From the NCBI GenBank assembly GCA_947445115.1, contig CANFCG010000004.1, positions 1 through 64,000 of the forward strand: a stretch of DNA of 64,000 nucleotides, written 5' to 3'. This stretch comes from Comamonadaceae bacterium. GTDB lineage: Bacteria; Pseudomonadota; Gammaproteobacteria; Burkholderiales; Burkholderiaceae_C. The notes under the pieces were generated by a model. That model was given only the letters and a program-made list of their open reading frames with translations, searched no databases and was not told the DNA's origin. Positions 1 through 51,668 of the stretch are shown piece after piece (positions within the stretch are counted from its first letter, which is position 1; each line of letters begins with the position of its first letter). Made by a program: the position numbers and the translations under genes.

Positions 1-135
1 ACCTTTTGAGCGGCCCGAATCACGTTCCATCATGACTTTGGCGCTGCTGACATTGCCGTAGGCGCTGAACTGCTGTTGAAGATCGCCATCGCGAACGGTG
101 TAAGGCAGGTTGCCTACATACAATTTATTACCCAT
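1..135 (-). CDS. RRM RNA-binding protein, N-terminal part (cut by window start)
   Basis: The first 45 residues of a protein that runs off the left edge of the window. It starts at an ATG (135-133) and shows the RNP2-type strand LYVGNLPY at residues 5-12, then a helix ending in SRSKG-like residues (SGRSKG) that normally lead into RNP1. This is the N-terminal half of an RNA recognition motif, as in the small single-RRM, cold-shock-associated proteins common in proteobacteria (family knowledge). The G-rich stretch GGGGAAC lies 8-14 bases upstream of the ATG. Only the family can be assigned; RNA targets are unknown. Confidence 0.85.
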   Translation of the reverse strand, partial: MGNKLYVGNLPYTVRDGDLQQQFSAYGNVSSAKVMMERDSGRSKG

Positions 136-277
136 AAACTCAAGTTCCCCTAAGGGACTCCTATAAAACAAAAAAAATAAAAATACCAGCGCTCATTATG
201 CGCCCTATTCCGCTTACAACCGGTTTTCTAGCACGTCTTTCGACTTAAATACGGGTAAATCCTAGGATATTTTTGAT

Positions 278-490
278 TTATTTTGTGATTTCGTTGCGCC
301 AATCCGACAAAGCATGCCGCATCACGTGTAGTTGATGCTCAAAGCGAGGGCAGTTTTTGCACATCCATAAGTGGATTCTAAGTGCAACTTTGTCGCGCCA
401 ATTGAGGGGTTTGTCTTCGGCAGACAGCATGAGGTGTGCAGCTTGCTGACAAGTTCGATGAAGCGGAATCGCGGATTTAAATGAGGACAT
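278..490 (-). CDS. zf-HC2 anti-sigma factor, 70 aa
   Basis: A 70-residue soluble protein with C14 and the zinc-binding anti-sigma signature H40-X3-C44-X2-C47. Family members hold an ECF sigma factor inactive and release it when a stress changes the zinc/cysteine site. The ATG (490-488) lies one base after the stop of the sigma gene, so translation is probably coupled. An in-frame start further upstream exists but would lie inside the sigma gene, so the short form is preferred. There is no transmembrane segment, which suggests a cytoplasmic sensor. The partner is inferred from the arrangement, not from any direct evidence. Confidence 0.8.
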   Translation of the reverse strand: MSSFKSAIPLHRTCQQAAHLMLSAEDKPLNWRDKVALRIHLWMCKNCPRFEHQLHVMRHALSDWRNEITK

Positions 491-491
491 A

Positions 492-1061
492 TTATTTATT
501 TCCAAACCAATTGAGATCGAGACATTCACGCAGTTTGAGTCTGGCGCGATGCAGTTGGACATAAAAATTCGTCGACGTCAGCTTTAATTCCTTACAGATT
601 TCCTCGCTGGACAACTCCAGCCACTCGCGCATGAGAAAAAGTCGCCCTAGCTGCGCGGGCAATTTCTCCATGCAGGCTTCCATCACGACAAAAAATTCTT
701 TTTGATTTAAGCCTGCCTCAGGATTACCCCAATCAGTAGGCGGCGTCGCAAAATGCCCGTCAGCCTTAAAAATCAAGCCTTCCAGCATATCGCTGTCGCT
801 GCTATCATCCGATTCAGGTAATGCAACTTCGCGCGCATTTTGCCGAAACTTGTCCAAAATTTTGAATTTCAAAATTCCAATGAGCCAAGTTTTGATTTGT
901 GAGCGGCCTTCAAATGCTTCTGGCTTTTCGAGTGCCACGATGAGCACCTCTGAGACCACGTCTTCTGCCCATGCATCGTTACGCAGTTGTAGCTTGGCGT
1001 AGCGCAAAAGATCTGTTCGCAATGGCGCGAGTTGCTCAGCAAATGAAGTGTTGGATGACAT
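492..1061 (-). CDS. ECF sigma-70 factor, TIGR02943-like
   Basis: A 189-residue ECF sigma factor. Region 2 is visible around residues 15-75 (LLRYAKLQLRNDAWAEDVV, then WLIGILKFKILDKFR). Region 4 is near the C terminus, with MREWLELSSEEICKEL followed by a recognition helix ending in QLHRARLKLRECL. The WGNPEAGLNQKEF linker and the MREWLEL segment fit the Sig70_famx1/TIGR02943 group (recalled, not searched). It forms a two-gene unit with the zf-HC2 anti-sigma downstream and is divergent from the bufferin operon, whose expression it very likely controls. In Caulobacter a different ECF factor (SigF) drives bufferin genes. No -35/-10 pair could be fixed with confidence. Confidence 0.88.
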   Translation of the reverse strand: MSSNTSFAEQLAPLRTDLLRYAKLQLRNDAWAEDVVSEVLIVALEKPEAFEGRSQIKTWLIGILKFKILDKFRQNAREVALPESDDSSDSDMLEGLIFKADGHFATPPTDWGNPEAGLNQKEFFVVMEACMEKLPAQLGRLFLMREWLELSSEEICKELKLTSTNFYVQLHRARLKLRECLDLNWFGNK

Positions 1062-1130
1062 GCACGCAAGTGTAGAAGAATATTTTTACGGCACTGTGTA
1101 AGATTTTTTTTGCTGGCGCTACTGATACTT

Positions 1131-1168
1131 AATCGCTGCATTTAGATGAGTTTTTTTAGGCAGCGATT
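1131..1168. promoter_or_regulatory. Inverted repeat in the bufA 5' region
   Basis: AATCGCTGC (1131-1139) and GCAGCGATT (1160-1168) form a perfect 9-bp inverted repeat with a 20-base loop that is T-rich on the plus strand. It lies 49 bases before the bufA ATG, in the gap between the divergent sigma factor and bufA. It could be a protein-binding site or a 5' UTR hairpin. The sequence alone does not separate these options. Confidence 0.5.
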
Positions 1169-1217
1169 ATTTTCTTATCCCGTTACTTTTTATTTTTCAA
1201 TTCAGGAGTTTTTAATC

Positions 1218-1511
1218 ATGAAACAACGCACTTTTATCGCTACTACGGCTGTCGCTTTGCTCACAGGTCTCTTGGCCACTCAGTCTATGACTGCAAACGC
1301 GCAAGCTAAAGAAAAATGCTACGGTATTGCTGCAGCGGGACAAAACGACTGCGCCAACTTGTCGGGCACGCATTCATGCCAAGGTCAATCCAAAGTCAGC
1401 ATGGGCGCTGACGAGTGGAAGTACGTTGCCAAAGGCGAATGCAAAAACATGAAGGGTATGACCGCCGAAGACAAAATGATGATGAAAAAAGACGACATGA
1501 TGAAGAAGTAA
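1218..1511 (+). CDS. bufA: Bufferin-type RiPP precursor BufA (DUF2282), 97 aa
   Basis: A 97-residue exported precursor of the DUF2282/BufA type. Residues 1-30 are a Sec signal peptide ending AQA. The mature part carries four cysteines at 34, 45, 54 and 75 in the settings EKCYG, NDCAN, HSCQG and GECKN, the typical spacing of this family. In characterised bufferins an MNIO enzyme with its partner converts some of these cysteines to thiooxazole rings that chelate copper in the periplasm (family knowledge). The C-terminal 20 residues are unusually rich in Met (78, 81, 87-89, 94, 95), Lys and Asp, which could add Cu(I) ligands. The ATG at 1218 is chosen because AGGAG (1204-1208) precedes it by 9 bases; a longer in-frame start has no such site. 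Confidence 0.9.
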   Translation: MKQRTFIATTAVALLTGLLATQSMTANAQAKEKCYGIAAAGQNDCANLSGTHSCQGQSKVSMGADEWKYVAKGECKNMKGMTAEDKMMMKKDDMMKK

Positions 1512-1535
1512 TTGTTCATTTAAGGTTGTTGGAAG

Positions 1536-2438
1536 ATGTTCGGCATAGGTTTTAAGCACGCGCACTATGCCGAGCTTCTAGAAAATCCATTCACCTACTC
1601 GGGTTCGTCGGGTGCGGCAGTGGATTTTCTAGAAGTGCATTCTGAAAACTTTTTTGCAAGCGAGGTTGGTGGTGGCGGTGCAGCTCGCGCAACCCTCGCT
1701 AGGGCTCGACGGCATTGGCCTATCAGCTTGCACGGCGTCGGACTTGCGCTCGGATCGGCTATCGGACTCGATCCTTGGCATCTCGATCAGTTAGCCGATT
1801 TGGTTTTGCGCACTGATCCACTTTTAGTATCAGATCACGCTTGCTTTGCGCGTGGATTTTTATCCAAACAAGCTACCACTGAACGCGAAACTCACGTCAT
1901 TCACGCATCCGATTTACTCCCCATCCCTTTTTCTAAAGCCTCGCTGGATGTGCTGTGCAGCAATGTGAGTCAAGTACAAGATCGACTCAAACGATCCATC
2001 GCTGTTGAGAATCTATCCGCTTACTTTGCATGGCATGCGGCGGACTATTCGGAGACGCAATATTTGAACGAGCTCACCCAGCGCACTGGCTGCAAGCTCT
2101 TGGTCGATGTGAACAACATCTACGTGAACGCTTTAAACGCCATCAAAGCAGGCGCAGAGATTGACCCACTATACAACTGCAAAACTTGGCTAGATCAAAT
2201 TTCAAGCGATGTGGTTGCCGAGATTCATGTGGCGGGTCACAACGCTATGGAGGACATCGTGATTGACGATCACTCCTGCGCGGTGAACGAGCCCGTGTGG
2301 AAGCTTTATCGTCATGCGGTCAAGCGATTCGGGAAAATTCAAACACTGGTGGAGTGGGATACTGATGTGCCTGCGCTTAACGTGCTAATTGCGCAAACGC
2401 AACTCGCCAAACATCACGCAGCGGAAGTGTTGATATGA
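1536..2438 (+). CDS. bufB: MNIO-family iron oxygenase BufB (DUF692)
   Basis: A 300-residue DUF692 protein, the multinuclear non-haem iron oxygenase (MNIO) family with a TIM-barrel fold. Candidate metal-ligand segments are spread as expected: H66 (SLHGVG), D100/H101 (VSDHACF), E148 (VENLS), D181/N183/N184 ([10 protein letters not shown]), E219/H221/H225 (EIHVAGHN), D235/H236 and E263 (VEWDTD). With BufC it should oxidise precursor cysteines to copper-binding heterocycles (family knowledge). It starts 25 bases after bufA and its last four bases overlap the bufC start (ATGA), so translational coupling is likely. The length is normal for the family, and no key segment appears to be missing. Confidence 0.93.
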
Positions 2439-3034
2439 GTAATCACACGCAAGCAACGCAGCAACTAATCGAGCAGCAACAAATGCTGCTTGGTGGATTA
2501 TTCGATTCATGGCCTAGTGTGCAGGCCAATCTTGCATTGGCTTCCCAGCAAGCATGGCCTGGAGGGCAATATCAACGTGGCTTACAGGCGTATCGCTCAA
2601 ACGCATCCATCCTCGCGCAGCAGGTGCTGGCGGCAGTCTATCCAACAGCGCGGCGGTTGATGGGCGAAGAACAGTTCGATGGTTTAGCGGTGCATTTTTG
2701 GCGCACACACCCACCAACCAAGGGCGACCTCGCGCAGTGGGGCGACGAGCTTGAGGATTATTTGCGCAGCATCCCAGAGCTGATGCAGTATGAGGCTTAT
2801 CTGCCCGATGTGGTGGCTCTGGAGTGGGCACTGCACGCGGGACTGACCGCGCCTAATTCCGAAGGCGATGATCCCGCTCCGCTGGCGCTTATTGAGAGCG
2901 ATTTCCCAATTGTCGATTTGGCGAGCGGTAAGGAATGGGCGGACATCTCCGACATACAAGGGCAGCATGCCTTGGTCTATCGCCAAGGCTTTAAAACACA
3001 ATGCATATCAATTCCGAAGGACGTACAAATATGA
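2435..3034 (+). CDS. bufC: BufC, DUF2063 partner/precursor-recognition protein
   Basis: A 199-residue DUF2063 protein, the usual partner of DUF692 enzymes. It is thought to bind the precursor and present it to the MNIO enzyme. Family-typical segments are GLQAYRSN (49-56), YPTARRLMG (69-77) and [12 protein letters not shown] (125-136). The second domain is short, since homologues I recall are about 240-260 residues, but the gene ends cleanly in an ATGA overlap with the DoxX gene, so it is not obviously truncated. It overlaps bufB by four bases. Both overlaps argue for a fixed enzyme:partner ratio from one transcript. Confidence 0.9.
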
Positions 3035-3495
3035 ATCCCATTCAATCCATCTATCAAGCTACATTCCCGCTTTGGAACAAGCTAGTTGTGACTTTAGAGG
3101 CTTTAAAAAATCCTGCACAGCTTGCAGCACGACTTTATGTGGGATGGATATTTTTTGCGTCAGGTTTGCTTAAAATTCAAAACTGGGACACGACAATTGA
3201 ACTCTTTACCAGCGAGTTTCATATTCCGATTTTGACTAGCCTCTCGCCCACGCTTGCGGCGATTATGGGCACGGGTGGCGAGCTTGTGCTCCCTGTGCTA
3301 CTCGTGTTCGGTCTCTTTGGTCGCTTTGCGGCACTCGGCCTATTTGTCATGAACATCGTCGCCGTGATTTCGCTATCCGAGATCGCACCCGCGGCACTGC
3401 AACAGCACCAGTTTTGGGGCTCGCTATTGGCGGGACTTGCGATTTGGGGCGTAGGACAGTGGAGCGCCGATCACTTTCGTTCCAAGCTGACTTAA
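3031..3495 (+). CDS. DoxX-family membrane protein of the bufferin operon
   Basis: A 154-residue integral membrane protein of the DoxX family with about four hydrophobic segments (roughly residues 30-50, 70-92, 96-115, 125-145) and the family-typical WIFFASGLLKI after the first Arg-Leu-Tyr. DoxX proteins accompany many bufferin clusters, where a redox or thiol-related role is suspected but unproven. The ATG at 3031 overlaps the bufC stop (ATGA) and has GAAGGA 9 bases upstream. An in-frame ATG at 3001, inside bufC, is less likely. Confidence 0.88.
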   Translation: MNPIQSIYQATFPLWNKLVVTLEALKNPAQLAARLYVGWIFFASGLLKIQNWDTTIELFTSEFHIPILTSLSPTLAAIMGTGGELVLPVLLVFGLFGRFAALGLFVMNIVAVISLSEIAPAALQQHQFWGSLLAGLAIWGVGQWSADHFRSKLT

Positions 3496-3518
3496 TCGGA
3501 AAATACAATGCAAGGTGA

Positions 3519-4034
3519 ATGTCAAACTCACTCACCATTGCTTGCATCGCCTTCGCTTCGTTTTTTTCAAATTTATCTTACGCACAAGATGATGAAAGAG
3601 ACGATTCTGCCGTTGCCTTCACCGTAGCGGCGGCAACCGAACGCGAAATGGCTACTGGCAATGCGAGAGTTGGTGCCACGCTGGGATTTGAAGTCGCGCT
3701 CATTGAGCACTGGTTGGAATTGGAAGTTCAAGTCTCTGCTCTAGGTCGAAATACCAATCGCGAATACACCAACGAATTCATATTGAAAAAGCCATTTCGA
3801 CTATCGAAAGACTCAGAGCTTGAAGTGGGTCTGGGTGCATTCATTTCTCGTCCTCAAATGGATTTGACGCAAGCGGCAGCCAGCGCATCACGTCGCGGCA
3901 ACTTGGTGATGGCTGAGTTCAAAAAATGGACGAGTAAAAATCGAGGATGGTTTATTGAGACGAGCCTAGGGCGCACGGCTGGAACGGGCGAAAAAGCGAT
4001 TGGCGTATCCGCGGGGCTTATTTTTGGATTGTAA
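3519..4034 (+). CDS. Exported protein of unknown function, possible small outer-membrane barrel
   Basis: 171 residues with a Sec signal peptide (about 1-22, ending SYAQ). The mature chain alternates polar and hydrophobic residues (LGFEVALIEHWLELEVQV, LEVGLGAFISRP, GWFIETSLGR) and ends ...GVSAGLIFGL, a pattern like a small beta-barrel with a hydrophobic C-terminal strand. It contains no cysteine in the mature part. It lies 23 bases after the DoxX gene on the same strand, preceded by AAGGTGA, so it is probably the last gene of the bufferin transcript. I do not recognise the family. Confidence 0.65.
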   Translation: MSNSLTIACIAFASFFSNLSYAQDDERDDSAVAFTVAAATEREMATGNARVGATLGFEVALIEHWLELEVQVSALGRNTNREYTNEFILKKPFRLSKDSELEVGLGAFISRPQMDLTQAAASASRRGNLVMAEFKKWTSKNRGWFIETSLGRTAGTGEKAIGVSAGLIFGL

Positions 4035-4079
4035 TTTTTAGCTTGGCCTAAGAAGCAGTGCGCCCCGTAAAATCGGGGG

Positions 4080-6833
4080 ATGCAAGAAACTCAAGCCTCT
4101 ACCGATCCCCAAGCATTCAACCCTTCGGCCATTGAAGCCGCAGCCCAAGCCAACTGGAATGCTCGCGATGCCTACCGCGTAAACGAAACGTCCAACAAAC
4201 CACTCGGCAAGTTCTACGCCTGCTCCATGCTGCCTTATCCATCGGGCAAGCTGCACATGGGGCACGTGCGCAACTACACCATTAACGACATGCTCACGCG
4301 CCAATTGCGCATGAAGGGCTACAACGTCCTCATGCCGATGGGCTGGGATGCCTTTGGCTTGCCCGCTGAAAACGCCGCTATGAAAAACGGCGTACCGCCT
4401 GCCGAGTGGACGCACTCCAACATTGCGTACATGAAAAAGCAAATGCAGGCGATGGGCTTAGCAATTGACTGGTCGCGTGAAGTGGCGACCTGCGACCCGA
4501 GTTACTACAAATGGAATCAGTGGTTATTTTTGAAGATGTTGGATGCGGGCATTGCGTACCGCAAAACGCAAACCGTGAACTGGGACCCTGTCGATATGAC
4601 CGTGCTCGCCAACGAGCAAGTGATTGATGGCAAAGGCTGGCGCACGGGCGCGGTGGTCGAAAAGCGCGAGATTCCTGGCTACTACCTCAATATCACCAAA
4701 TATGCCCCCGAGCTGCTAGAGCACGTCCAGACTGGGCTTGCGGGCTGGCCTGAGCGTGTGAGGCTCATGCAAGAAAACTGGATTGGTAAATCAGAAGGCG
4801 TTCGTTTTGCGTTTCCGCACGAGATTAAAGATGCAAGTGGTGAGTTGATTCAAGGCGGCAAGATGTACGTCTTCACTACCCGCGCTGACACCATCATGGG
4901 CGTGACCTTCTGCGCGGTTGCGCCTGAGCATCCAATAGCCATGCGGGCTGCGGAGCTAAACCCTTCGATTGCCGCGCGGATAGAGGGCTTCAAAGAAGGC
5001 GGCACTACAGAAGCCGAACTTGCGACCAAAGAAAAAGAAGGCGTCGCGACTGGCTTGTTTGTCACGCATCCTTTGACTGGCGAGCAGATTGAAGTGTGGG
5101 TGGGTAACTATGTGCTGATGAGCTACGGCGACGGTGCGGTCATGGGCGTACCCGCGCATGATGAGCGCGATTTTTCGTTTGCTTTGAAATACGCATTGCC
5201 AATTAAACAAGTCGTTGCAAAGGCAGGTAACTTTAGCGATCAAGATTGGCAAGATTGGTATGCAGACAAAGACGGTACAACCAGCATTAACTCAGGGAAA
5301 TACGATGGACTCTCTCGCATTGATTGCGTGAGTGCCGTTGCCGCAGACCTTGCCAGCAAAGGCCTAGGCGAGAAGAAGACCACATGGCGCCTCCGCGATT
5401 GGGGCATTAGTCGTCAGCGTTATTGGGGCACACCGATTCCCATTATTCATTGCGACGGAGCGGGAGATGCGGCAAGCGCATGCGGCGCAGTGCCTGTGCC
5501 TGAAAAAGATTTACCTGTAGTTTTACCAACCGACCTTGTCCCCGATGGCTCAGGCAATCCGCTACACAAGAGCGCGAAGTTTTTAAACGTGGCTTGCCCC
5601 ACCTGCGGAAAACCCGCCAAGCGCGAAACCGACACGATGGACACGTTTGTCGACTCAAGCTGGTACTACTCGCGCTATTGCGACCCGACCAACATGGATG
5701 CGATGGTGGCTGGCGGCGCGGCGTATTGGATGGGCGCAAACGCAGACCCAGCCAAGCGCGGCGGTATGGATCAATACATTGGTGGCATCGAGCACGCGAT
5801 TTTGCATTTGCTCTACGCGCGCTTTTGGACCAAGGTGATGCGTGACTTGTGGCTCTTGCAAGTCGATGAGCCGTTCACCAAATTGCTCTGCCAAGGCATG
5901 GTGCTCAACCATGTGTACAGCCGCAAAAATGCCAAAGGCGGCATTGATTATTTCTGGCCAACCGATGTTGAAAATACGTTCGGCGCGGACGGCAAAGTAA
6001 CGGGCGCGAAGCTCAAGTCAGACGGCAGCGTAGTGGACTATGGCGGCGTGACGACGATGTCCAAATCCAAGAACAACGGCGTCGATCCGCAAGACATCAT
6101 CGATCGCTACGGCGCAGATACGGCGCGGCTGTACATGATGTTTACTGCGCCACCCGAAGCAACACTGGAGTGGAACGATGCGGCAGTGGAGGGCTCGTAT
6201 CGCTTCTTGCGTCGTGTGTGGAACTTTGCGCAAAAGAACAAAGACGTTATTGCGCTTGGCATGACGGTCGATCGAAGCAAGCCTGTTGAGTTTGGTGCTG
6301 AATCCAAAACCTTGCGCCGCGAGATGCACACCATCTTGAAGCAAGCGAATTACGACTACGAGCGCATGCAATACAACACGGTGGTGTCGGCCGTGATGAA
6401 GATGCTCAACACGTTAGAAGATGCTCCGCAGACCATACTGGATGTGGCTTCTAGCAGTGACAATTTGACACCAAATACGAATGCGGCGGCGCTTGCTGAA
6501 GTCGTGTCTATCTTGCTGCGTGTGCTCTATCCCGCGTGCCCACACATTGCTTTCCAGCTTTGGACGGAGCTGGGTTATGCCGCTTGCTGCGGTGATTTGC
6601 TAGACGTGGCTTGGGCGGACGTCGATGAGTCAGCTTTGGTGCGTGAAGAGTTAGAGCTGATGTTGCAAATCAACGGCAAGCTGCGTGGTTCGATTAGGGT
6701 GTCTGCATCGGCGGACAAAGCTGCAATTGAAGCGGCCGCCTTGGCATCAGATGCCTTCATCAAACAAGCCGCTGGCGCAGCCCCTAAAAAGGTGATCGTG
6801 GTGCCCGGGCGTTTGGTTAATATTGTGATCTAG
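4080..6833 (+). CDS. leuS: Leucyl-tRNA synthetase
   Basis: 917-residue class Ia synthetase that charges tRNA-Leu. The HIGH motif is HMGH (59-62) within [15 protein letters not shown]. The editing domain follows, with a T-rich motif (TTRADTIMG), then the catalytic half with WYYSRYCDP and [13 protein letters not shown]. The KMSKS loop reads TMSKSKNNG with Met at residue 660, so the first lysine is Thr while the second, catalytically more important lysine is kept. It is somewhat longer than the E. coli enzyme (860). The ATG at 4080 follows a GGGG stretch. It heads the leuS-lptE-holA group, a standard order in betaproteobacteria. Confidence 0.97.
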
Positions 6834-8408: not shown

Positions 8409-9033
8409 ATCGCCACTTTGGCAAGCCGTGTGATCTCATCCCACTTGCCAGCCAACACCAAGTCTAGCGGTGTGAGCCACGAGCCTCCAACCATTGCCAC
8501 ATTGGGCTGATCTAAAAATTCGCGCATATTGACAAGTGACACGCCGCCTGTGGGGCAAAACTGCATATCGCCCAGCGGTCCTGCCATCGCTTTGAGCATG
8601 GCTAGTCCTCCTGCTTGTGCGGCAGGAAAAAGTTTGACGAGCGAAAAGCCGTAATCTCGTGCTTGTATCACTTCGCCAGGCGTCATCACACCAGGCATAA
8701 AGGGCATACGGCAATCGATGGCAGCTTGCACCAGTGCATCCGTCATACCTGGGGAAAGCGCAAAGCGCGCACCTGCGGCTTGCACGCTTGCCATCTCTGA
8801 TGCGCGGGTGACCGTGCCTGCGCCTACGATCATTTCGGGCACGTGCTTAGCAACTTGTTCAATGGCGGGCAAGCCAGCAGCGTGGCGTAGCGTGATTTCC
8901 ATTACGTCGATGCCGCCTGCTAGTAGTGCTCTCGCCATGGGTACGGCCTGCGCAGGGTCGGTAATGACGATGACGGGAACAACGCGCGATTTGAAGGCGG
9001 GGCGTTGAAACGTGGGGTGGAGAGTAGAGTTCA

Positions 9034-9034
<1 letters not shown>
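8381..9034 (-). CDS. eda: KDPG/KHG aldolase
   Basis: 217 residues. Cleaves 2-keto-3-deoxy-6-phosphogluconate to pyruvate and glyceraldehyde-3-phosphate, the last step of the Entner-Doudoroff route. Catalytic features visible: E46 in DVMEITLRH, GAGTV (71-75), SPG (94-96) and the Schiff-base lysine K134 in SLVKLFPA. Its ATG shares one base with the edd stop codon (TAATG), so translation is coupled. It is the promoter-distal gene of zwf-edd-eda, and its 3' end overlaps holA by 28 bases. Confidence 0.96.
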
Positions 9035-10899
<1,865 letters not shown>

Positions 10900-10902
10900 G
10901 AG

Positions 10903-12387
10903 TTAGGCCTCTTCGTGCCACGTCAGATTTTCGCGCGCCATCAATGCAGACGAAGCCGATGGACCCCAGCTACCTGCTGAATATTCACGCGGCTTGTCAC
11001 CTAGCACTTGCCAGCCCTTCAAAATGGGCTCGACCCAGATCCATGCAGCTTCTAACTCGTCGCGGCGCATGAAGTGCGTGAGGCGACCTTTGATGACGTC
11101 AATCAAGAGGCGCTCATACGCTTCAGCGCGGCGTTTGTCGGATGCCGTGTGCAAATCTAAACCCAGCTTGACGGGCGTGAGATTCATGCCCGAGCCAGGC
11201 TCTTTCACCATCATCTCTAGCTGAATCGATTCTTCGGGTTGCAATTGAATGATGAGGCGATTGGGTTGTTTCTGTGCGTTGACGCTCGTGCTGGCGGCGG
11301 CGTTAAAAATAGAAAACGGCGAGTCGGCAAATTCAATCACGATCTCCGATTGCCGCTTAGCCAGTCGCTTGCCCGTGCGTAAAAAAATGGGCACACCTGC
11401 CCAGCGCGCGTTATTGATTTCGGCTTTGAGCGCCACGAAGGTCTCCGTTTTGCTGCCCGCTGGTACATTGGCCTCTTCGCTGTAGCCCTTAACTGCCGTG
11501 CCTTCCGAGGCACCTGCCGTATATTGACCGCGCACCGTGTTATGGCGAATGTCGTTCAAATTCATCTTGCGCAGCGAGCGAAGTACTTTGAGCTTTTCGT
11601 CGCGCACATCGTCAGGGTCAAACGAAATCGGCTGCTCCATTGCCACAATGCACAGCAGTTGCAAGAGGTGGTTTTGGATCATGTCGCGCATCGCGCCTGC
11701 GCCATCGTAAAAGCCTGCGCGTGAACCCACGCCCACGGATTCCGCCACCGTAATTTGTACGCTCTTGATGTAGGGCGCGCGCCACAGGGGCTCAAAAATA
11801 GCATTGCCAAAACGCAGCACCATCAGGTTTTGTACGGTCTCTTTGCCAAGGTAGTGGTCGATGCGGTAAATCTGCGATTCGGCAAAATGCTCGGCCACAG
11901 CGGTGTTGATTTTTCGTGCTGAGGCGAGGTCGGTGCCCAGTGGTTTTTCTAACACCACGCGTGATTGGCTATCGACCAAACCTGCGGTATCTAGGTTGGC
12001 GCAAATTTGTGCGAAGAGGCTTGGCGCAGTCGCGAGGTAGAACACGCGCAGTGCGGGTTCTGGGCATATGTTTGTTAGTTTGATGTAGCTGTCAGCGTCG
12101 GTGACGTCGAGACTCACGTAGTGCAGGCGCTCCAAAAAGCGTTGCCAGTCTTCTTGGGTGAAGGCGTGATGCTCAATAAATTCAGGCGAATGCGAATCGA
12201 CAAAAGCGTGGTACTCAGCCACAGACCACGGCTGGCGGCCTATGCCGATGATGCGCGTGCTAGCGTCAAGTCTGTCATGCAAATGCGCCATGTACAGCGC
12301 GGGCAGCAGTTTGCGAAACGACAGATCGCCTGCCCCACCAAAAATAACGATATCTTGTTGCGTCTTGGGTTGCTCAGTATTGCTCAT
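10903..12387 (-). CDS. zwf: Glucose-6-phosphate 1-dehydrogenase
   Basis: 494 residues. Oxidises glucose-6-phosphate to 6-phosphogluconolactone with NAD(P)+. The dinucleotide-binding loop is GGAGDLSFRK (17-26) and the active site is RIDHYLGKE (175-183). It lies 44 bases downstream of the MFS transporter gene in an AT-rich gap and just before edd. A separate 6-phosphogluconolactonase gene (pgl) is not seen in this cluster. The linkage to the sucrose genes suggests induction by sugar rather than purely housekeeping expression. Confidence 0.97.
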   Translation of the reverse strand: MSNTEQPKTQQDIVIFGGAGDLSFRKLLPALYMAHLHDRLDASTRIIGIGRQPWSVAEYHAFVDSHSPEFIEHHAFTQEDWQRFLERLHYVSLDVTDADSYIKLTNICPEPALRVFYLATAPSLFAQICANLDTAGLVDSQSRVVLEKPLGTDLASARKINTAVAEHFAESQIYRIDHYLGKETVQNLMVLRFGNAIFEPLWRAPYIKSVQITVAESVGVGSRAGFYDGAGAMRDMIQNHLLQLLCIVAMEQPISFDPDDVRDEKLKVLRSLRKMNLNDIRHNTVRGQYTAGASEGTAVKGYSEEANVPAGSKTETFVALKAEINNARWAGVPIFLRTGKRLAKRQSEIVIEFADSPFSIFNAAASTSVNAQKQPNRLIIQLQPEESIQLEMMVKEPGSGMNLTPVKLGLDLHTASDKRRAEAYERLLIDVIKGRLTHFMRRDELEAAWIWVEPILKGWQVLGDKPREYSAGSWGPSASSALMARENLTWHEEA

Positions 12388-15324: not shown

Positions 15325-17532
15325 TTAAAAGTTGACCTTGACCGAGGCACGGATCGTACGGCCTGGGTAGGCGCGCGTCGAGTTATTCCACGCACCAATG
15401 CCGCCTTCGGTATTAGCTAGCGTATTGAATAAATTATTAACAGCCAAGCTGGCGGTTGTTTCTTTGTTAACTTGATAACTGGTGAAGGCATTGAACATGG
15501 TGTAACCCGCAAGCGTGATGGTGTTGGCGTCGTCACCGTACGATTTGGTTGTTCCGATGATGGATCCGCCCAATGTGACGTCACCCATGCTGTAGCTTGG
15601 CATGATTGAATAAACAAACTTGGCTTGTCGCTGTGGCATGGTGCTCGTGGCATCAATTTTGGCGTTGGTGTAAGTCAAAGCCGAGTTGATACGGAAGCCG
15701 CCCGAGCGGTAGCCGAGTTCAGTCTCCAAACCGCTGGCGCTATAAGAGTTAGTTACAAAACCAAGTGCTGGATTCGTGACGTCAAAATTACTTTCAGTTG
15801 TTTTGGCGATAAACACGGTGCCTGCCGCATTGACTGGACCCGACTTCATGCGAACACCGAGGTCATACTGCCGTACTTGGTTAAAGCTTGGCGATGGATT
15901 ATTGGCGATTGTGCCAAGACGATCCGTCGGCATGAAGTTATAGCCTTGGCTTAAGGAGCCATAAACACTTAGCTCTTTTGACAATGCATAGTTGCCCCCA
16001 AACGAATAAGCATTTTTGTTGAGGCTGTAGCTAATGGCGCCTGGCGTTGCCCAAGTCCCTGCTCCCACACCGGTAGCAGCTGAGAGGCCGCCGGTTGTAC
16101 CGGTCACGCGCTGATTCATGCTCCGAATGCCACCATCTAGTGTCAGTGCACCGCTCTCGTAATGCAGGCTTGCATACGGGTCGATTTCATAGAATTTGGC
16201 ATCTGTTCTTAAAGCGCCCCATGTTCCACCTCCAATCGTGTTGGGTGTAGCGAACAATGTACCCACGGCGCTAGAGCCAATGCCACGGATGGCATATTGA
16301 TTGAAATACTGACTATATTTTTGGTTTTGCTGACCATAAAAGACACCAAATGTAGGTGTTATTTTTGCGCCATTGGCTAAGCCCATGGCTTTGCTAAATT
16401 TCAGATCATCAAAGATGTTGCCCATGTTGTCCAGCGTCGCGTCCATGATCGAGAACGGAATGGTGCCTGCGGCTGTTGTAGCGCCCGCTCCTACATTGGT
16501 GTTACCCAATGGGAAGGCAGCCAAAAATGACCCGCTGTTCATGCTGTAGCGGAAGTTGTTGTTGACATTCCAGCCGCTAGCCAAGTTGAACTTGGCATTG
16601 ACACCAAATGAGTCGCTCTTGGCAGTCAAGCCATTCCTCAAATCATGACTAACGGTATTGCCGCTAGAGTCAAGCACCACATTGCGAGGGGTTTGATTGT
16701 TGATAAAGAAATTGGTTCGAGCATCGCCCACGCCGTTCGGTGAAGGCATCAGCATCGGCACAGTGTCGTCCAAATGTTTAAAGTTAAATTGAATGGAGCC
16801 GCCGCGGTCTAGCTCGTGCAAGTAGTTGGCGCGAACTTGGCCGCCTTTTTCGGAGTTAAAGCCCGTGTTAATCGCACCGCCTGCGCCCGAACGGTAAAAA
16901 CCGCCGATATTGATAAAGCTGCCATTGCCCAGCGCCGTACCATAGTTGAAGTCGGTGCGAGTCAAGCGCGAGCCAATCCCAACCGTCACGCCCACAGCGT
17001 TCACAGCCTCTTTGCCTGTTTTGGTGATGTAGTTCACCACGCCACCTGGCGCATTTGAGCTTTGTGTGGAGGATTGACCACCTCGGACAAACTCGACTCG
17101 GTCTGTCATGTAGTCGGTACGCATAAATTCATCGGGCGTGGCGAACGAGGCATCCCCCCACATCAAAACAGGCAGTCCATCTTCTTGGTATTGCATGTAG
17201 CGCGACCCACCGGCAGACACGGGCAAACCACGAACGGCGACGTTGGCGTTGCCGCTACCACCGGATGCCTCAACACGAACGCCTGGTAAAGAGCGCAAAA
17301 TATCTGCGGTATTGGTTGCACCAGTCGCTTCAATTTGCTCTGCACCAATGGAGCTGACCGAATCGGTAGATTTCATTTTGGAGCGGCCTGTAGGCGACGC
17401 CGTGACAATGACTTCATCTAAGCCAGATGCACTGTTGGTCGCAGCAGTTTGCGCCAATACGCTGGCTGGCAGCATGCTGAGCGCGACCGCAGCACCGATG
17501 GCGCTACAAGTAAAGAAACGTAACTTCTTCAT
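15325..17532 (-). CDS. TonB-dependent outer-membrane receptor, probable sucrose porter
   Basis: 735 residues. A signal peptide (about 1-27, ending VLAQ) is followed by a TonB box-like DEVIVTASP, a plug domain (about 45-165, with ADILRSLPGVRVEASGG and NAPGGVVNYITKTG) and a C-terminal barrel ending ...GRTIRASVKVNF, with the terminal Phe usual for outer-membrane barrels. It is not a classical siderophore receptor by context: it is upstream of sucrose phosphorylase and a sugar transporter and divergent from its own TonB system. This resembles the Xanthomonas sux locus, with phosphorylase in place of amylosucrase. The substrate is inferred from neighbours only. Confidence 0.9.
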   Translation of the reverse strand: MKKLRFFTCSAIGAAVALSMLPASVLAQTAATNSASGLDEVIVTASPTGRSKMKSTDSVSSIGAEQIEATGATNTADILRSLPGVRVEASGGSGNANVAVRGLPVSAGGSRYMQYQEDGLPVLMWGDASFATPDEFMRTDYMTDRVEFVRGGQSSTQSSNAPGGVVNYITKTGKEAVNAVGVTVGIGSRLTRTDFNYGTALGNGSFINIGGFYRSGAGGAINTGFNSEKGGQVRANYLHELDRGGSIQFNFKHLDDTVPMLMPSPNGVGDARTNFFINNQTPRNVVLDSSGNTVSHDLRNGLTAKSDSFGVNAKFNLASGWNVNNNFRYSMNSGSFLAAFPLGNTNVGAGATTAAGTIPFSIMDATLDNMGNIFDDLKFSKAMGLANGAKITPTFGVFYGQQNQKYSQYFNQYAIRGIGSSAVGTLFATPNTIGGGTWGALRTDAKFYEIDPYASLHYESGALTLDGGIRSMNQRVTGTTGGLSAATGVGAGTWATPGAISYSLNKNAYSFGGNYALSKELSVYGSLSQGYNFMPTDRLGTIANNPSPSFNQVRQYDLGVRMKSGPVNAAGTVFIAKTTESNFDVTNPALGFVTNSYSASGLETELGYRSGGFRINSALTYTNAKIDATSTMPQRQAKFVYSIMPSYSMGDVTLGGSIIGTTKSYGDDANTITLAGYTMFNAFTSYQVNKETTASLAVNNLFNTLANTEGGIGAWNNSTRAYPGRTIRASVKVNF

Positions 17533-17640
17533 TTAAAAATCCCCTTTATAAAAATGAGCTAAACAGAGTGAATGATTCAAATAACCTTATCCGCGATCTC
17601 ACGAACCTATCGGATGCGAATAGGTAAATTATGTCATTTA

Positions 17641-17654
17641 TGCAAACGATTGCA
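17641..17654. promoter_or_regulatory. LacI-type operator O1
   Basis: TGCAAACGATTGCA is a near-perfect 14-bp palindrome with the central CG typical of LacI/GalR-family operators; one base pair breaks the symmetry. On the minus strand, TTGCAA in this site is followed after 16 bases by CATAAT, a plausible -35/-10 pair for the TonB receptor gene, so a bound repressor would cover the promoter. Confidence 0.8.
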
Positions 17655-17720
17655 ATCAGGGTTTTAAATTATTTTATAGGTGTTTACACTAGGTAAATAA
17701 ATTAATTTCTTTTAATACAA

Positions 17721-17734
17721 TGCAAACGTTTGCA
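17721..17734. promoter_or_regulatory. LacI-type operator O2
   Basis: TGCAAACGTTTGCA is a perfect 14-bp palindrome, almost identical to O1 and centred 80 bases from it. It lies 78 bases before the tonB ATG, just upstream of TAATAT (17742-17747), which could be the -10 of the plus-strand promoter. The lacI gene at the end of the plus-strand operon is the likely source of the repressor. Confidence 0.85.
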
Positions 17735-17811
17735 ATTTCTGTAATATTGTTTTGATAGATAAAAATAATCAATAATGAGTCATAAACTTCAACCAATGGC
17801 GGTGCTTTTAA

Positions 17812-18450
17812 ATGAATGATTTTGCTTCGCGTCAACGATCATCTAGGCGGTGGATGGGTGTCGCTGCGGTGATTGTTTTTCACTTGGCTTTAGTGCTGGC
17901 CATTCAATCGGGGTTGGCACGAAAATTTGTCAAAGTGGTGCAAGGCCCTGTTGAGGCGCGTTTGCTGGAGGAGACCAAGCCGGATATTCCGCCCCCACCA
18001 CCCCCACCACCAAAGAACTTGCCGCCACCTCCTGCCTATGTGCCGCCTGTGGATGCGCCAGTGACGAATGCGCCTGTTGCAGCCAATGCGATTGCGGCTG
18101 TCGTGCGTGAAGCGCCGCTTGCGCCTGCGCCGCCGCCCGTCGCCATGCCCGCGTCGCCTGCCAATGTCCGCGTGGCACCGACAGTGAATGCCGCTACAAA
18201 TTGTCAAAAAGTAGATTACCCCTCGGCCTCACGCCGTGAGGAGGAGGAGGGGACTGTACATCTCAAGATCTTAATAGGCGTCGATGGCCGGGTCACCGAT
18301 ACACAGTTGGAAAAGTCGTCTGGTTTTAAGCGGCTGGATGAGGCGACGCGTCTTGCAGCGATGACGAAGTGCCAATTTCGGCCCGGTACGCTGGACGGCA
18401 AGCCTGAGGCGGCTTGGGGTACGCTGCGCTATACGTGGCGATTGGAATAA
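17812..18450 (+). CDS. tonB: TonB energy-transducer protein
   Basis: 212 residues. One N-terminal membrane anchor (about 16-34, WMGVAAVIVFHLALVLAIQ), then a periplasmic proline-rich spacer (runs of Pro at about 60-90) and a C-terminal TonB domain (CQKVDYPSASRREEEEGTVHLKILIGVDGRV...). It carries energy from ExbBD to outer-membrane receptors. It is the first gene of the plus-strand operon and divergent from the receptor, which suggests a dedicated system for that receptor rather than the general iron-uptake TonB. Confidence 0.95.
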   Translation: MNDFASRQRSSRRWMGVAAVIVFHLALVLAIQSGLARKFVKVVQGPVEARLLEETKPDIPPPPPPPPKNLPPPPAYVPPVDAPVTNAPVAANAIAAVVREAPLAPAPPPVAMPASPANVRVAPTVNAATNCQKVDYPSASRREEEEGTVHLKILIGVDGRVTDTQLEKSSGFKRLDEATRLAAMTKCQFRPGTLDGKPEAAWGTLRYTWRLE

Positions 18451-18492
18451 GTCAGTTTTTAGAATTTTTTCATTTTTATATTGGGAGTTTTT

Positions 18493-19251
18493 ATGAAGTT
18501 CAATCAAATTAAACGTGCGGCCTTGATTGGCGCGGCAGTTCTAGCTACTTTGGGTGCGTGCACCTTTGCTTTTGCCAATGGCGACGTGCCCGCAGGCGAC
18601 AACCCATATGGCCTCTCAGCCCTTTGGAATCAAGGCGACATGGTGGCCAAGGCGACGTTGTTTATACTGGTGGTCATGAGCATGGGCAGTTGGTATGTGA
18701 TCGTGACCAAGTTTTTAGAACAAGCCAAAATGATGAAGCAAGCCAAGGCGGCTGAGAGTAGTTTTTGGACGGCTGGCAGTGTGCGCCAAGGCGCCGATGG
18801 ACTGACCGAAGACAGCCCATTTCGCTACATTGCTGAAAAGGGTTTGGAAGGCGCCGATAAGCATGTGGGGATGCTGGCGTCGATTGACTTTAATACATGG
18901 GTCACCATGAGCTTGCAGCGCGCTACTGCCGAAGTGCAAAGCCGCTTGCAAGATGGTTTAGCGGTACTGGCAACGGTGGGTTCGACAGCGCCATTTGTGG
19001 GATTGTTTGGCACGGTGTGGGGTATCTACAACGCACTAGTCAAAATTGGTATGTCGGGCCAAGCCAGTATTGATAAGGTCGCAGGACCCGTGGGTGAGTC
19101 GCTCATCATGACGGCCATTGGTTTGGCGGTTGCCGTGCCTGCGGTATTAGGCTACAACTGGCTGGTGCGCCGTAACAAGGCGGCGCTAGAGCGCGTACAT
19201 GGTTTTGGTAACGATCTCCATGCGGTGCTGTTGGCATCGAATAAAAAGTAA
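18493..19251 (+). CDS. exbB: ExbB, MotA/TolQ/ExbB proton channel protein
   Basis: 252 residues, inner membrane. It has a first hydrophobic segment at the N terminus (signal or extra membrane span), then three ExbB spans; the conserved motif around the second and third spans reads STAPFVGLFGTVWGIYNALV and AIGLAVAVPAVLGYNWLVRRN. With ExbD it uses the proton gradient to drive TonB. The ATG at 18493 is chosen because GGGAG precedes it by 5 bases; a TTG 12 bases upstream is the alternative. Confidence 0.95.
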   Translation: MKFNQIKRAALIGAAVLATLGACTFAFANGDVPAGDNPYGLSALWNQGDMVAKATLFILVVMSMGSWYVIVTKFLEQAKMMKQAKAAESSFWTAGSVRQGADGLTEDSPFRYIAEKGLEGADKHVGMLASIDFNTWVTMSLQRATAEVQSRLQDGLAVLATVGSTAPFVGLFGTVWGIYNALVKIGMSGQASIDKVAGPVGESLIMTAIGLAVAVPAVLGYNWLVRRNKAALERVHGFGNDLHAVLLASNKK

Positions 19252-19269
19252 TTTTTAAAGGACACCGTC

Positions 19270-19695
19270 ATGGGAATGAATGTAGGCTCGGATTCGGGCG
19301 ATGATGATGCCGTTTTGAGTGAAATTAACACCACGCCCTTGGTGGACGTGATGCTGGTATTGCTCATCATCTTTTTAATCACGATTCCTGTGGTAACCAC
19401 GTCGATCAAGGTGAACTTGCCTAAAGAAAACAATGTGATCCGCGAGACCAAGCCCGAGAACGTGATTATCTCTGTCAATGCAGCAGGCGGCATTTATTTG
19501 TACGACACGCCGGTTAAAGACTCGAATGCTTTGATTGGGCGCATGAAAGTGTTTGCTGTCAAAACGCCCCAGCCTGAAGTGCAAATCCGAGGTGATGGGA
19601 AAAGCGATTTTGAATCCGTCGGGCGCGTGATGTACGCGGTGCAGCGCGCAGGCATTGTCAAGGTGAGCTTTATCACCGAGCCACAAGGCAACTAG
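19270..19695 (+). CDS. exbD: ExbD, first copy
   Basis: 141 residues. Single N-terminal membrane span with the family-defining aspartate in INTTPLVDVMLVLLIIFLIT, then a periplasmic domain. Asp in LVDVML is the proton-conducting residue. It follows exbB by 18 bases with AAAGGA upstream. A second, different exbD follows directly, an arrangement common in TonB systems of Xanthomonas-like and some betaproteobacterial loci. Confidence 0.95.
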   Translation: MGMNVGSDSGDDDAVLSEINTTPLVDVMLVLLIIFLITIPVVTTSIKVNLPKENNVIRETKPENVIISVNAAGGIYLYDTPVKDSNALIGRMKVFAVKTPQPEVQIRGDGKSDFESVGRVMYAVQRAGIVKVSFITEPQGN

Positions 19696-19708
19696 GAAAG
19701 GACAGATC

Positions 19709-20137
19709 ATGGGAATGTCAATGGGCAGCAATCCAAATGCCGAACCAGAAGTCATGATGGACATCAACACCACGCCGCTGATTGACGTGATGCTGGTGTT
19801 ACTCATCATGCTCATCATCACGATTCCGATGCAATTGCATGCGGTGAATTTAGATATGCCCGCCGCCGCGCCACCGACTAAAAAAGTTGACCCGGTGGTG
19901 ATGAAGGTGGATATTGATGCCGCAGGTGTGATTTTTTGGAATGGCGCCGCCGTCGAAAATCGTGCTGCTTTAGATCTGTTATTGACACAGTCCAAGGCCA
20001 TGGAGCCTCAGCCAGAATTGCATATCAAATCGAACGCAAAAGCTAAATACGAAGTGGTCGCGGGTGTGCTGGCTTCGGCGCAACGTATTGGTTTAACCAA
20101 ATTAGGCATCGTTGGCTCGGAGCAGTTTGCCAATTGA
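19709..20137 (+). CDS. exbD: ExbD, second copy
   Basis: 142 residues, related to but clearly distinct from the upstream ExbD. The channel motif is kept (INTTPLIDVMLVLLIMLIIT). The periplasmic part differs strongly, with a PAAAPPTKKVDPVV linker and WNGAAVENRAALDLLL. GGAAAGGA precedes the ATG. The stop overlaps the TTG start of the next gene (TTGA). Two different ExbD subunits may form a mixed dimer in the ExbB pore. Confidence 0.94.
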   Translation: MGMSMGSNPNAEPEVMMDINTTPLIDVMLVLLIMLIITIPMQLHAVNLDMPAAAPPTKKVDPVVMKVDIDAAGVIFWNGAAVENRAALDLLLTQSKAMEPQPELHIKSNAKAKYEVVAGVLASAQRIGLTKLGIVGSEQFAN

Positions 20138-20958
20138 AGCGCGGTTTCGTTCTTCTCGCATTTTTAACAAATGCCGTACTGGCGCAAATGCCTACAGCGC
20201 CTGTTGTCACGGAAGCTGCTTTGGAGCTAGCGCTGGGCAACCCAGCGCTGACACAGACGCAAAAATTACAAGTTTATACGGGGCTCATCGAGCTGCATTT
20301 GCAGGCCAAGGCTTACGATAAGTTGGTACAGACAGCAGATCGTTATTTAGAGCTTGACCCGACTCGATCCCTCGTTCGTTTGCAACAAGCGCAGGCTTTG
20401 GCACTGTTGGGCAAAGATGTTGAAGCGATTGCTGCTGTGCAAGAAAAAATGCGACGCGATACACTCACGCAAACCAAACCGACTGAGGCGGAGCTACGCA
20501 TTTTGGCGCGCAGCGAGGCGCGTCTTAAAAATAAAATCGACGTGCAAACAGCGCTTGTTTTGCTGCTGACACACTATCCGCAAAGCCCAAATGCTAAACT
20601 TTATTGGCAAGACTTACTCACGCAAAGATTAGACGCCTTGCAAGGGATGGATAAACCCGACAAGCGTGTGATTTATGGCTTTTATCGCTTACTGCAAGCG
20701 ACGGGCAATTTAACGGAGGCGGAGGATATTGCTGAAGCGGCCGTATTGGCGATCGATGCAGGGCAGCCCCGCCAAGCCTTACAGATCTTAGCGTTGAACG
20801 AAAAACCCGATCTCGCACAGTTAAAAATCAAAGACCGCGCTGAAAAATTAGCCAAAGCAGATGTGCAAAGCGGCACCAGTCCAGCGCCATGGGAGGTTGT
20901 GCCAGCGCCTGAGCGCTGGCAAGAGTTGTCAAGCCTTTGGCGACTGCTGGCAAAATAG
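20134..20958 (+). CDS. Exported tetratricopeptide-like protein of the TonB operon
   Basis: 274 residues. Starting at a TTG that overlaps the exbD stop gives a clean signal peptide (MKRGFVLLAFLTNAVLAQ); the next ATG, at 20188, would remove it. The mature part is helical with TPR-like repeats (for example YTGLIELHLQAKAYDKLVQTADRYLEL, residues about 48-75). Proteins of this kind follow exbD genes in several sugar- or TonB-linked loci. A scaffold role in the TonB complex is possible, but no specific function is known to me. Confidence 0.75.
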   Translation: MKRGFVLLAFLTNAVLAQMPTAPVVTEAALELALGNPALTQTQKLQVYTGLIELHLQAKAYDKLVQTADRYLELDPTRSLVRLQQAQALALLGKDVEAIAAVQEKMRRDTLTQTKPTEAELRILARSEARLKNKIDVQTALVLLLTHYPQSPNAKLYWQDLLTQRLDALQGMDKPDKRVIYGFYRLLQATGNLTEAEDIAEAAVLAIDAGQPRQALQILALNEKPDLAQLKIKDRAEKLAKADVQSGTSPAPWEVVPAPERWQELSSLWRLLAK

Positions 20959-48223: not shown

Positions 48224-49330
48224 TTACGCGTAGCAATTCTCTAAGCCTTGCAGCAAGATATCTTTTGGCAAATCAATACCAATAAAAACCATCTTGCTAT
48301 TGCGCACTTCGTCTTTGCCCCAAGCGGGTCCAAGGTCGCTGCCCATGAGCTGGTGTACGCCTTGGAAGATCACTTTTCGCTCAGTGCCCTTCATGTTCAG
48401 TACGCCTTTGTAGCGCAGCATTTTTGGGCCGTAAATGTTGACAATGGCGCCTAAAAAATCTTCTAGTTTGGCAGGGTCGAGTGCCTTGTTGGCACGGAAG
48501 ACAAAGCTCTTCACATCGTCATCCGTGTGGTGATGATGCAGATGCTGCTCGCTATGGTCATGTCCACAATGTTCGTCATGCACATGACCCGCTTCGCCGT
48601 GCTTGGGTGCGTGATTGTGCGATGGGTGATCGCAATCCTCTCCGTGCGCATGGTCGTGGTGGTGGTGCTCTTCGACCTTTAGAAAGTCAGGATCAAGATC
48701 TAATTTGGCATTCAAATTAAAGCCGTGCAAGTCAAATACTTCGCTAATTTTGATGTCACCAAAATGCACGGTGCGCTGTGGGGCGCGTGGGTTCATGTGC
48801 TTGAGACGATGCTGGAGTGCGTCTAAATTTGCGGCACTCACCAGCTCCGATTTGCTGATGAAGAGTTGATCTGCAAAGCCCACTTGGCGGCGTGCTTCTT
48901 GGCGTGTGTTCAGTTGATCGGCAGCGTGAACCGCATCCACCAGCGTGAGAATGGAGTCGAGCAAATAGCTCTCAGCAATCACATCGTCCATAAAGAAGGT
49001 TTGCGCCACAGGACCAGGATCGGCAAGGCCTGTAGTTTCAATCACGATACGGTCAAAGTCCAGCTCGCCCTTGCGTTTTTTCTCGGCCAACTCAGTCAAA
49101 GTAGTCCGCAAATCTTCGCGAATGGTGCAGCAAACGCAGCCATTACTCATTTGGATAATTTGTTCTTTGGTGTCGCTGACCAAAATGTCGCTATCAATGT
49201 TTTCTTCGCCAAATTCGTTTTCAATGATGGCGATTTTTTGACCATGTGCCTCGGACAAGATGCGTTTGAGCAAGGTGGTTTTGCCAGAGCCTAAAAAGCC
49301 AGTGAGGATGGTTGCGGGGATGAGTGCCAT
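48224..49330 (-). CDS. COG0523-family GTPase (YjiA/CobW), His-rich metallochaperone
   Basis: 368 residues. Walker A GFLGSGKTT (11-19), the family's CxCC metal motif in NGCVCCTIREDL (about 69-80) and NKALDPAKLEDFLG at the start of the C-terminal domain. A histidine-rich stretch of about 55 residues (about 225-280) has HHHHDH, DHPSHNH, HCGHDH and LHHHH clusters, enough to bind several zinc, nickel or cobalt ions. COG0523 proteins insert or store metals, often zinc, using GTP. No Zur-type operator was seen upstream. Confidence 0.92.
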   Translation of the reverse strand: MALIPATILTGFLGSGKTTLLKRILSEAHGQKIAIIENEFGEENIDSDILVSDTKEQIIQMSNGCVCCTIREDLRTTLTELAEKKRKGELDFDRIVIETTGLADPGPVAQTFFMDDVIAESYLLDSILTLVDAVHAADQLNTRQEARRQVGFADQLFISKSELVSAANLDALQHRLKHMNPRAPQRTVHFGDIKISEVFDLHGFNLNAKLDLDPDFLKVEEHHHHDHAHGEDCDHPSHNHAPKHGEAGHVHDEHCGHDHSEQHLHHHHTDDDVKSFVFRANKALDPAKLEDFLGAIVNIYGPKMLRYKGVLNMKGTERKVIFQGVHQLMGSDLGPAWGKDEVRNSKMVFIGIDLPKDILLQGLENCYA

Positions 49331-49476
49331 GATTTGTTTTTATAAGAAGAGAGAAGTTGATTTTATCGAGCTGTTTTCCAGCCTGTCACAAGAGAGAAGC
49401 GGATCGCCCTTAGCTGGGATCGATTCGTTAGACTTTCAAGTGAGCTTATATTTTTATTTTTCTACAGGAGTCCATT

Positions 49477-50932: not shown

Positions 50933-50992
50933 GAGGCATTGTAAAATGCAAGGTTGTACTTTCCCCATTTGCCTAACTATTCTTTTTGCGCC

Positions 50993-51640: not shown

Positions 51641-51668
51641 TCACGTACTTCAGCGCTAGCCGTTCCCC

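Follow-up and report, generated by a model that had tools for sequence, protein, structure and literature searches.

A bufferin operon in a Comamonadaceae bacterium as a probable arm of an ECF-sigma regulon with the methionine-sulfoxide reductase MsrPQ

In Caulobacter, the extracytoplasmic function (ECF) sigma factor sigF, whose anti-sigma factor is NrsF, controls two DUF2282 (bufferin) operons together with YedY from promoters of the form GTAACC-N16-CGAA (PMC3511200; here and below, statements about published systems reflect the available part of each source). The Neisseria sigmaE-MseR operon, NMB2140-2145, has the -35 element GTAAGGTT, and its regulon includes MsrAB (PMC2893595). In H. influenzae, RpoE2, with the 67-amino-acid (aa) cytoplasmic anti-sigma factor HrsE, controls msrAB, mtsZ and a DoxX operon after exposure to hypochlorous acid (HOCl) (PMC7907618). 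Here we describe a locus at the start of a 64,000-nucleotide (nt) stretch of Comamonadaceae DNA (contig CANFCG010000004.1, positions 1 to 64,000; hereafter the window), where the minus strand encodes an ECF sigma factor with a small anti-sigma factor of the zinc type (ZAS), divergent from a bufABC-doxX operon on the plus strand. Judged by its genes and predicted promoters, this system is a hybrid of Caulobacter-like cargo and a Neisseria-type sensor, joined by MsrPQ and a DUF1223 protein. We consider it probable that the bufferin operon and MsrPQ are arms of the same small ECF-sigma regulon, one directed at envelope oxidation.

Comparison with described systems

The locus shares with Caulobacter sigF-NrsF a DUF2282-DUF692-DUF2063-DoxX operon next to an ECF sigma gene, and YedY, taken as MsrP, belongs to the sigF regulon. 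The sensors differ, as the earlier note had thought they might: NrsF is a membrane protein of ~210 aa with six helices, whereas the anti-sigma protein here has 70 aa and belongs to another family, ZAS. A further difference is that predicted promoter sites also lie ahead of msrQ and the DUF1223 gene here.

The ZAS protein resembles Neisseria MseR, with one Cys followed by His-X3-Cys-X2-Cys at equal relative spacing (C4/H30/C34/C37 in MseR, C14/H40/C44/C47 here). A DoxX gene in the operon and a methionine-sulfoxide (MetO) reductase in the regulon are also shared. By contrast, the Neisseria sigma and anti-sigma genes lie inside the same autoregulated operon, the repair enzyme is MsrAB, and the gonococcal precursor, gonophorin, belongs to the EGKCG type (PMC12668002). 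HOCl-induced RpoE2-HrsE of H. influenzae has in common with our locus a small cytoplasmic anti-sigma factor and a DoxX operon with genes for a periplasmic protein, UPF0276 and DUF2063, although that operon forms a separate gene cluster and MsrAB and MtsZ stand in place of MsrPQ.

Gene kinds and neighbourhood are also shared with gigPABT-rpoQ-rsqA of Cupriavidus metallidurans, in which gig is copper-induced; there RsqA is predicted to be membrane-bound, and no Msr link is described in the available text (PMC10304878). The HOCl-induced Brucella system bcrS-abcS/bcrXQP likewise places MsrPQ homologues and a Met-rich peptide under an ECF sigma factor, whereas its anti-sigma factor is of the NrsF type, its peptide is an MXKDX repeat, and DUF692 and DUF2282 are not mentioned in the available text (PMC8315932). 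In a survey of MNIO clusters, those of the Buf1 kind are noted to include sigma and NrsF genes, with no ZAS protein mentioned in the part available, and Oxidored_molyb and ferric-reductase genes are reported from a few oxazolin clusters. Given gigPABT-rpoQ-rsqA, Caulobacter sigF and Neisseria sigmaE/MseR as published relatives, the novelty that the earlier note had seen in the system was overstated. The bufferin operon type is already known, and the new part is likely the shared-promoter regulon. Among the matches listed in a search of literature titles and abstracts, which covers subscription papers thinly, none dealt with DUF2282 beside a ZAS anti-sigma factor, named MsrP in connection with bufferins, or placed DUF1223 in a regulon of this kind; one paper on Caulobacter under copper (PMC8224329) contains the words DUF2282, anti-sigma and zinc in its available text.

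Predicted promoters at bufferin and MetO repair genes

We assigned families with Pfam and NCBIfam profiles at curated cut-offs and searched two sets of relatives, 40 genomes and 250 genomes of the family, each including the genome of the window (a 2.34-Mb draft in 59 contigs). The predicted bufA promoter occupies 1098-1128 on the plus strand, with GTAAG at 1098-1102, a spacer of 16 nt and CTACTGATAC at 1119-1128. Of 37 bufA loci (the window, 29 titled loci that contain bufA and seven others), 32 had GTAAG-N16/17-(G/T)AC no more than ~270 nt ahead of bufA, compared with 37 of 2910 equal-length windows taken from both strands of the rest of the same loci. The site in this form was absent from L100, L116, L039, L037 and L051; in L037 and L051 the GTAAG is followed by a longer spacer, and in L039 the variant GTAAT occurs. 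Both boxes were identical in the four genus sequences. We therefore predict a conserved ECF-type promoter for bufA.

The strict pattern, GTAAG-N17-KACTRA, had five matches in the genome of the window, at bufA, msrP, msrQ, a DsbD-like gene and one intragenic position. The site lies 24 nt ahead of msrP (NF003767, 468 bits, cut-off 207) and 31 nt ahead of msrQ (NF003831, 173 bits, cut-off 130), placing MetO reductase genes under the same predicted promoter type. Five genomes of the genus gave 18 strict matches: five at msrP, four at bufA, two at the DsbD-like gene, one each at msrQ and the DUF1223 gene, three at tmRNA-like positions (named by eye) and two intragenic. The msrP site was thus present in 5 out of 5 genomes and the bufA site in all four that have bufA. 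For msrQ, looser forms were used; such a site was found in G000, G001 and G002, with a doubtful fourth in G003, where the spacer is shorter. Within the genus, msrP and msrQ lie on separate contigs (in G000, C11 at ~48600-52000, after the DsbD-like gene, and C13 at 3379-4028, respectively), and in G000 each carries a site despite this separation. Outside the genus the two genes adjoin in relatives that have both, except in G035, where they are on different contigs.

With a spacer of 16-18 nt allowed, a site also preceded the gene for the DUF1223 protein (PF06764, in G004) in all five genomes of the genus. Among ZAS-positive genomes that could be anchored, 11 of 12 had such a site, compared with 1 of 3 ZAS-negative genomes. 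The sites in G023 and in ZAS-negative G009 lie ~150 nt farther upstream than elsewhere; leaving these out, the counts were 10 of 12 and 0 of 3, respectively. We take this protein to be thioredoxin-like. Together, the sites indicate that the regulon likely also holds MsrP, MsrQ and the DUF1223 protein. Two kinds of match were set aside. The first is that at the DsbD-like gene upstream of msrP: two of the five genus genomes have it, its GTAAG runs into the 3' end of the gene before it, and its -10 resembles TATACT. The three tmRNA-like and two intragenic matches were dropped as non-promoters.

The sites co-occurred with the sigma/ZAS pair. Of the 40 genomes, 23 have DUF2282, 23 have the ZAS family (22 above the cut-off) and 17 have both; sigma matches above 160 bits were confined to ZAS genomes (22 of 23, against 0 of the 17 others), with a 54-aa fragment in G004, the remaining ZAS genome. 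For 30 genomes with a fetched msrP region, the msrP site was present in 14 of 17 ZAS-positive and 2 of 13 ZAS-negative genomes (p 0.0004), in 12 of 17 and 2 of 13 for the strict form (p 0.0035), and in 8 of 9 and 2 of 9 within the family but outside the genus (p 0.008), these p-values being too small because the genomes are related. Six of the 23 ZAS-positive genomes had no DUF2282 gene that we could find (one of them, G004, is merely 78% complete); the msrP region could be read in four of the six, and three of these keep the msrP site, which suggests that MetO repair forms the predicted regulon's core and the bufferin is an addition.

Gene order gave a second kind of link. On contig C6 of G024 (~16449-20602, minus strand), bufA-bufB-bufC-doxX-msrP-msrQ stand in a row on one strand, and no sigma/ZAS pair was found in that genome; by its gene order, this row is an independent link between bufferin and MetO repair. 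Separately, G009 (L036, L149 and L232) carries sites at bufA and msrP and the far site at the DUF1223 gene, and neither the ZAS family nor a close relative of the sigma factor was found there; their role may have passed to a different sigma/anti-sigma pair.

Just past the predicted -10 of bufA lies an inverted repeat (1131-1168, plus strand; arms AATCGCTGC and GCAGCGATT, loop of 20 nt). It recurs in all four genus sequences, with loops of 15-21 nt and arms that carry one double-sided change in G003, a G-U pair in G002 and one mismatch in G001, and its folding z-scores range from -1.3 to -2.5. An Rfam search of positions 1-5000 returned no match. The repeat could be a 5' mRNA hairpin or an operator.

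Genes of the locus

The sigma factor (492-1061, minus strand, 189 aa) passed the cut-offs of NF009173 (286.7 bits, cut-off 255) and TIGR02943 (225.1, cut-off 162.2), and both PF04542 and PF08281 were above their Pfam cut-offs. The ZAS protein (278-490, minus strand, 70 aa) passed NF052368 (63.2 bits, cut-off 50), and the proposal that the operon has its own ECF sigma/anti-sigma pair beside it thus held. The anti-sigma gene most likely starts at 490 rather than 562, one base past the sigma stop codon. The protein had been labelled a zf-HC2 anti-sigma factor: the H-X3-C-X2-C motif (H40/C44/C47) is present and invariant across 34 aligned sequences, whereas Pfam zf-HC2 itself scored 18.8, under its cut-off of 22.2. 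The upstream Cys, C14, stands 26 residues ahead of the His, as in ZAS proteins, and no membrane helix was apparent by eye. A search of solved structures with the ZAS sequence returned none at E up to 1. Because the two genes are paired in genomes, we infer that the ZAS protein binds and inhibits this sigma factor. Of the 37 bufA loci, 33 had a sigma match and 34 a ZAS match; in L107 and L032 too little sequence lies beside bufA to judge, and L111 has more than 2 kb upstream and no match. The divergent sigma-ZAS/buf layout is conserved in Comamonadaceae, with the pair on the strand of the operon in G027 and G031. As a side observation, 8 of the 37 loci have a redoxin (thioredoxin-fold) gene between sigma and bufA (for example, L128 at 1555-2058); the window and G003 have none at that position.

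All four operon families scored above their Pfam cut-offs, confirming a bufferin-type operon: BufA, the DUF2282 precursor (1218-1511, plus strand, as are all genes that follow; PF10048, 77.9 bits, cut-off 22.4), BufB, the MNIO enzyme (1536-2438, 300 aa; PF05114, 280.9, cut-off 25), BufC, the DUF2063 partner (2435-3034; PF09836, 62.4, cut-off 27.2) and the DoxX-family membrane protein (3031-3495; PF07681, 63.4, cut-off 23.6). The profile search for DUF692 and DUF2282 that the earlier note had called for thus places BufB in the MNIO family. The described ATGA coupling applies to two of the three junctions, bufB/bufC (at 2435) and bufC/doxX (at 3031); bufA and bufB are separated by 24 nt.

The description of BufA as a four-Cys precursor was borne out by an alignment of 36 sequences, in which all four Cys align. 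Its N-terminus is signal-peptide-like by eye, and its C-terminal tail has seven Met in 22 residues, with one MKKDD fitting MXKDX. This Met-rich tail is not general (0-7 Met over the 36 sequences, with seven in four of them), and we rejected assignment to the MXKDX family, which gave no NCBIfam match at E up to 1. The enzyme had been called apparently complete, and the BufB alignment agrees: H66, D100/H101, E158/N159, D191, N193/N194, H231, D244, H246, E273 and D275 are nearly invariant in 36 sequences, at columns expected to be metal ligands or bases. BufB aligns with the solved DUF692 proteins 3bww and 8hci, and most of its conserved columns align with one or the other, D275 only within a weak segment of 3.4 bits. 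Since BufB keeps the conserved MNIO columns, its modification of BufA Cys residues is likely. In two relatives, G010 and G016, a second MNIO match lies downstream of the Buf1 cluster (L039 at ~8882-10539 and L043 at ~11314-11997); the match in L039 is preceded by a small Cys-containing frame and followed by a DUF2063-like match.

The earlier note had counted a novel exported fifth protein as part of the unit, and this claim did not stand. ORF5, an open reading frame at 3519-4034, 23 nt after doxX, has coding-like codon usage and a signal-like start. It matched no Pfam or NCBIfam family, and no relatives were found in the 39 or in the 249 other genomes searched; a single-sequence structure model gave eight beta strands with a pLDDT of 49. 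The gene after ORF5 is leuS (named by eye), and in G001 and G003 leuS, also named by eye, follows doxX after ~10 nt with no ORF5; in G002 the contig ends too soon past doxX to judge. We therefore rejected ORF5 as a fifth component: it lies in a lineage-specific insert (3496-4079) between doxX and leuS and is probably no part of the system, although it may be co-transcribed with the operon. A terminator scan found four candidates compared with 5.7 expected in shuffled sequences.

Proposed mechanism and alternatives

In the mechanism that we favour, the small ZAS protein would keep the sigma factor bound in the cytoplasm until its Cys/zinc site is oxidised by HOCl, disulfide stress or the action of copper on thiols. 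Freed sigma factor would then read GTAAG-N16-nGAC promoters and co-induce bufABC-doxX, the periplasmic MetO reductase MsrP, its membrane partner MsrQ and the exported-looking DUF1223 protein. BufB and BufC would convert BufA Cys residues to thiooxazoles, and the exported BufA would bind periplasmic copper and so lessen copper-driven oxidation, while MsrPQ would repair oxidised Met. ZAS proteins retain sigma factors by way of a zinc site, and RsrA is reported to answer disulfide stress. The C14/H40/C44/C47 spacing matches that of NMB2145 and RsrA, from which we infer release by thiol oxidation, either direct or via copper. As the regulon likely includes MsrP, MsrQ and the DUF1223 protein, envelope or thiol oxidation appears better founded as the inducer than copper alone. 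MsrPQ of E. coli is reported to be copper-induced and to keep the copper chaperone CusF reduced, so a joint role in copper and oxidation would be sensible.

Several observations weigh against this reading. The strict pattern is no more frequent than its reverse, with 5 and 7 matches, respectively, in the genome of the window and 18 and 27 in the five genus genomes; we therefore discarded promoter counting as evidence, and the case rests on positional conservation. No site was found upstream of the sigma gene in any of 33 loci, so there is no sign of the autoregulation seen in Neisseria, and we rejected it for this sigma factor. ZAS-negative G009 and G021 carry the msrP site, ZAS-positive G013, G027 and G034 do not, and 6 of the 23 DUF2282 genomes have no ZAS family. 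BufB scored 275.3 on NCBIfam MNIO_BufB (cut-off 310) and BufC scored 18.3 on HvfC (cut-off 142); matches to BufA2 and HvfX were likewise below cut-offs. In the available parts of the literature, Neisseria sigmaE expression is unaltered by oxidative stimuli (PMC2893595), the response of Caulobacter sigF to Cr and Cd is called independent of oxidative stress and YedY is just partly sigF-dependent (PMC3511200), H. influenzae lacking rpoE2 has wild-type oxidant resistance in vitro (PMC7907618), and deletion of rpoQ in C. metallidurans raised gig expression (PMC10304878).

These reports lend some weight to a dedicated copper or gold response, in which metal would displace the ZAS zinc, the operon would only buffer copper, and the MsrP promoter would be shared by ancestry or for copper damage. 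In its favour, gigPABT beside rpoQ-rsqA is induced by copper and gold (PMC10304878), bufferins aid growth under copper stress (PMC12452194), Caulobacter sigF answers Cr and Cd (PMC3511200), and E. coli MsrP is itself copper-induced. However, the RpoE2 targets of H. influenzae rise with HOCl (PMC7907618), and the ZAS genomes that keep the msrP site without a DUF2282 gene argue for a switch independent of bufferin; we regard a response to metal only as unlikely, if still the strongest competitor. A different sigma factor or regulator might instead recognise GTAAG, the sigma/ZAS pair being just a neighbour, but this seems improbable: G009 has bufA and msrP sites with no ZAS family or close sigma relative found, and the available C. 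metallidurans data hold no proof that RpoQ reads gig (PMC10304878), yet the msrP site co-occurs with the pair and GTAAG resembles the -35 elements published for sigmaE of Neisseria and sigF of Caulobacter.

A doubtful extension of the envelope-oxidation regulon is that the co-regulated MsrPQ also repairs the bufferin, whose Met-rich tail would act as a copper ligand and a renewable oxidant sink, with the ZAS protein sensing oxidation rather than metal. If true, one exported peptide would join a thiooxazole copper trap to a repairable Met scavenger, and the bufferin systems would merge with the MrpX/BcrX hypochlorite-scavenger systems.

The predicted promoter sites, shared across a bacterial family, tie bufferins, so far regarded as copper buffers, to periplasmic Met repair. 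They suggest that NrsF and ZAS are interchangeable as the sensor, with bufferin and MetO repair staying paired. The purpose of bufferins, whether against copper, oxidants or both, thereby becomes testable in cultured Comamonadaceae.

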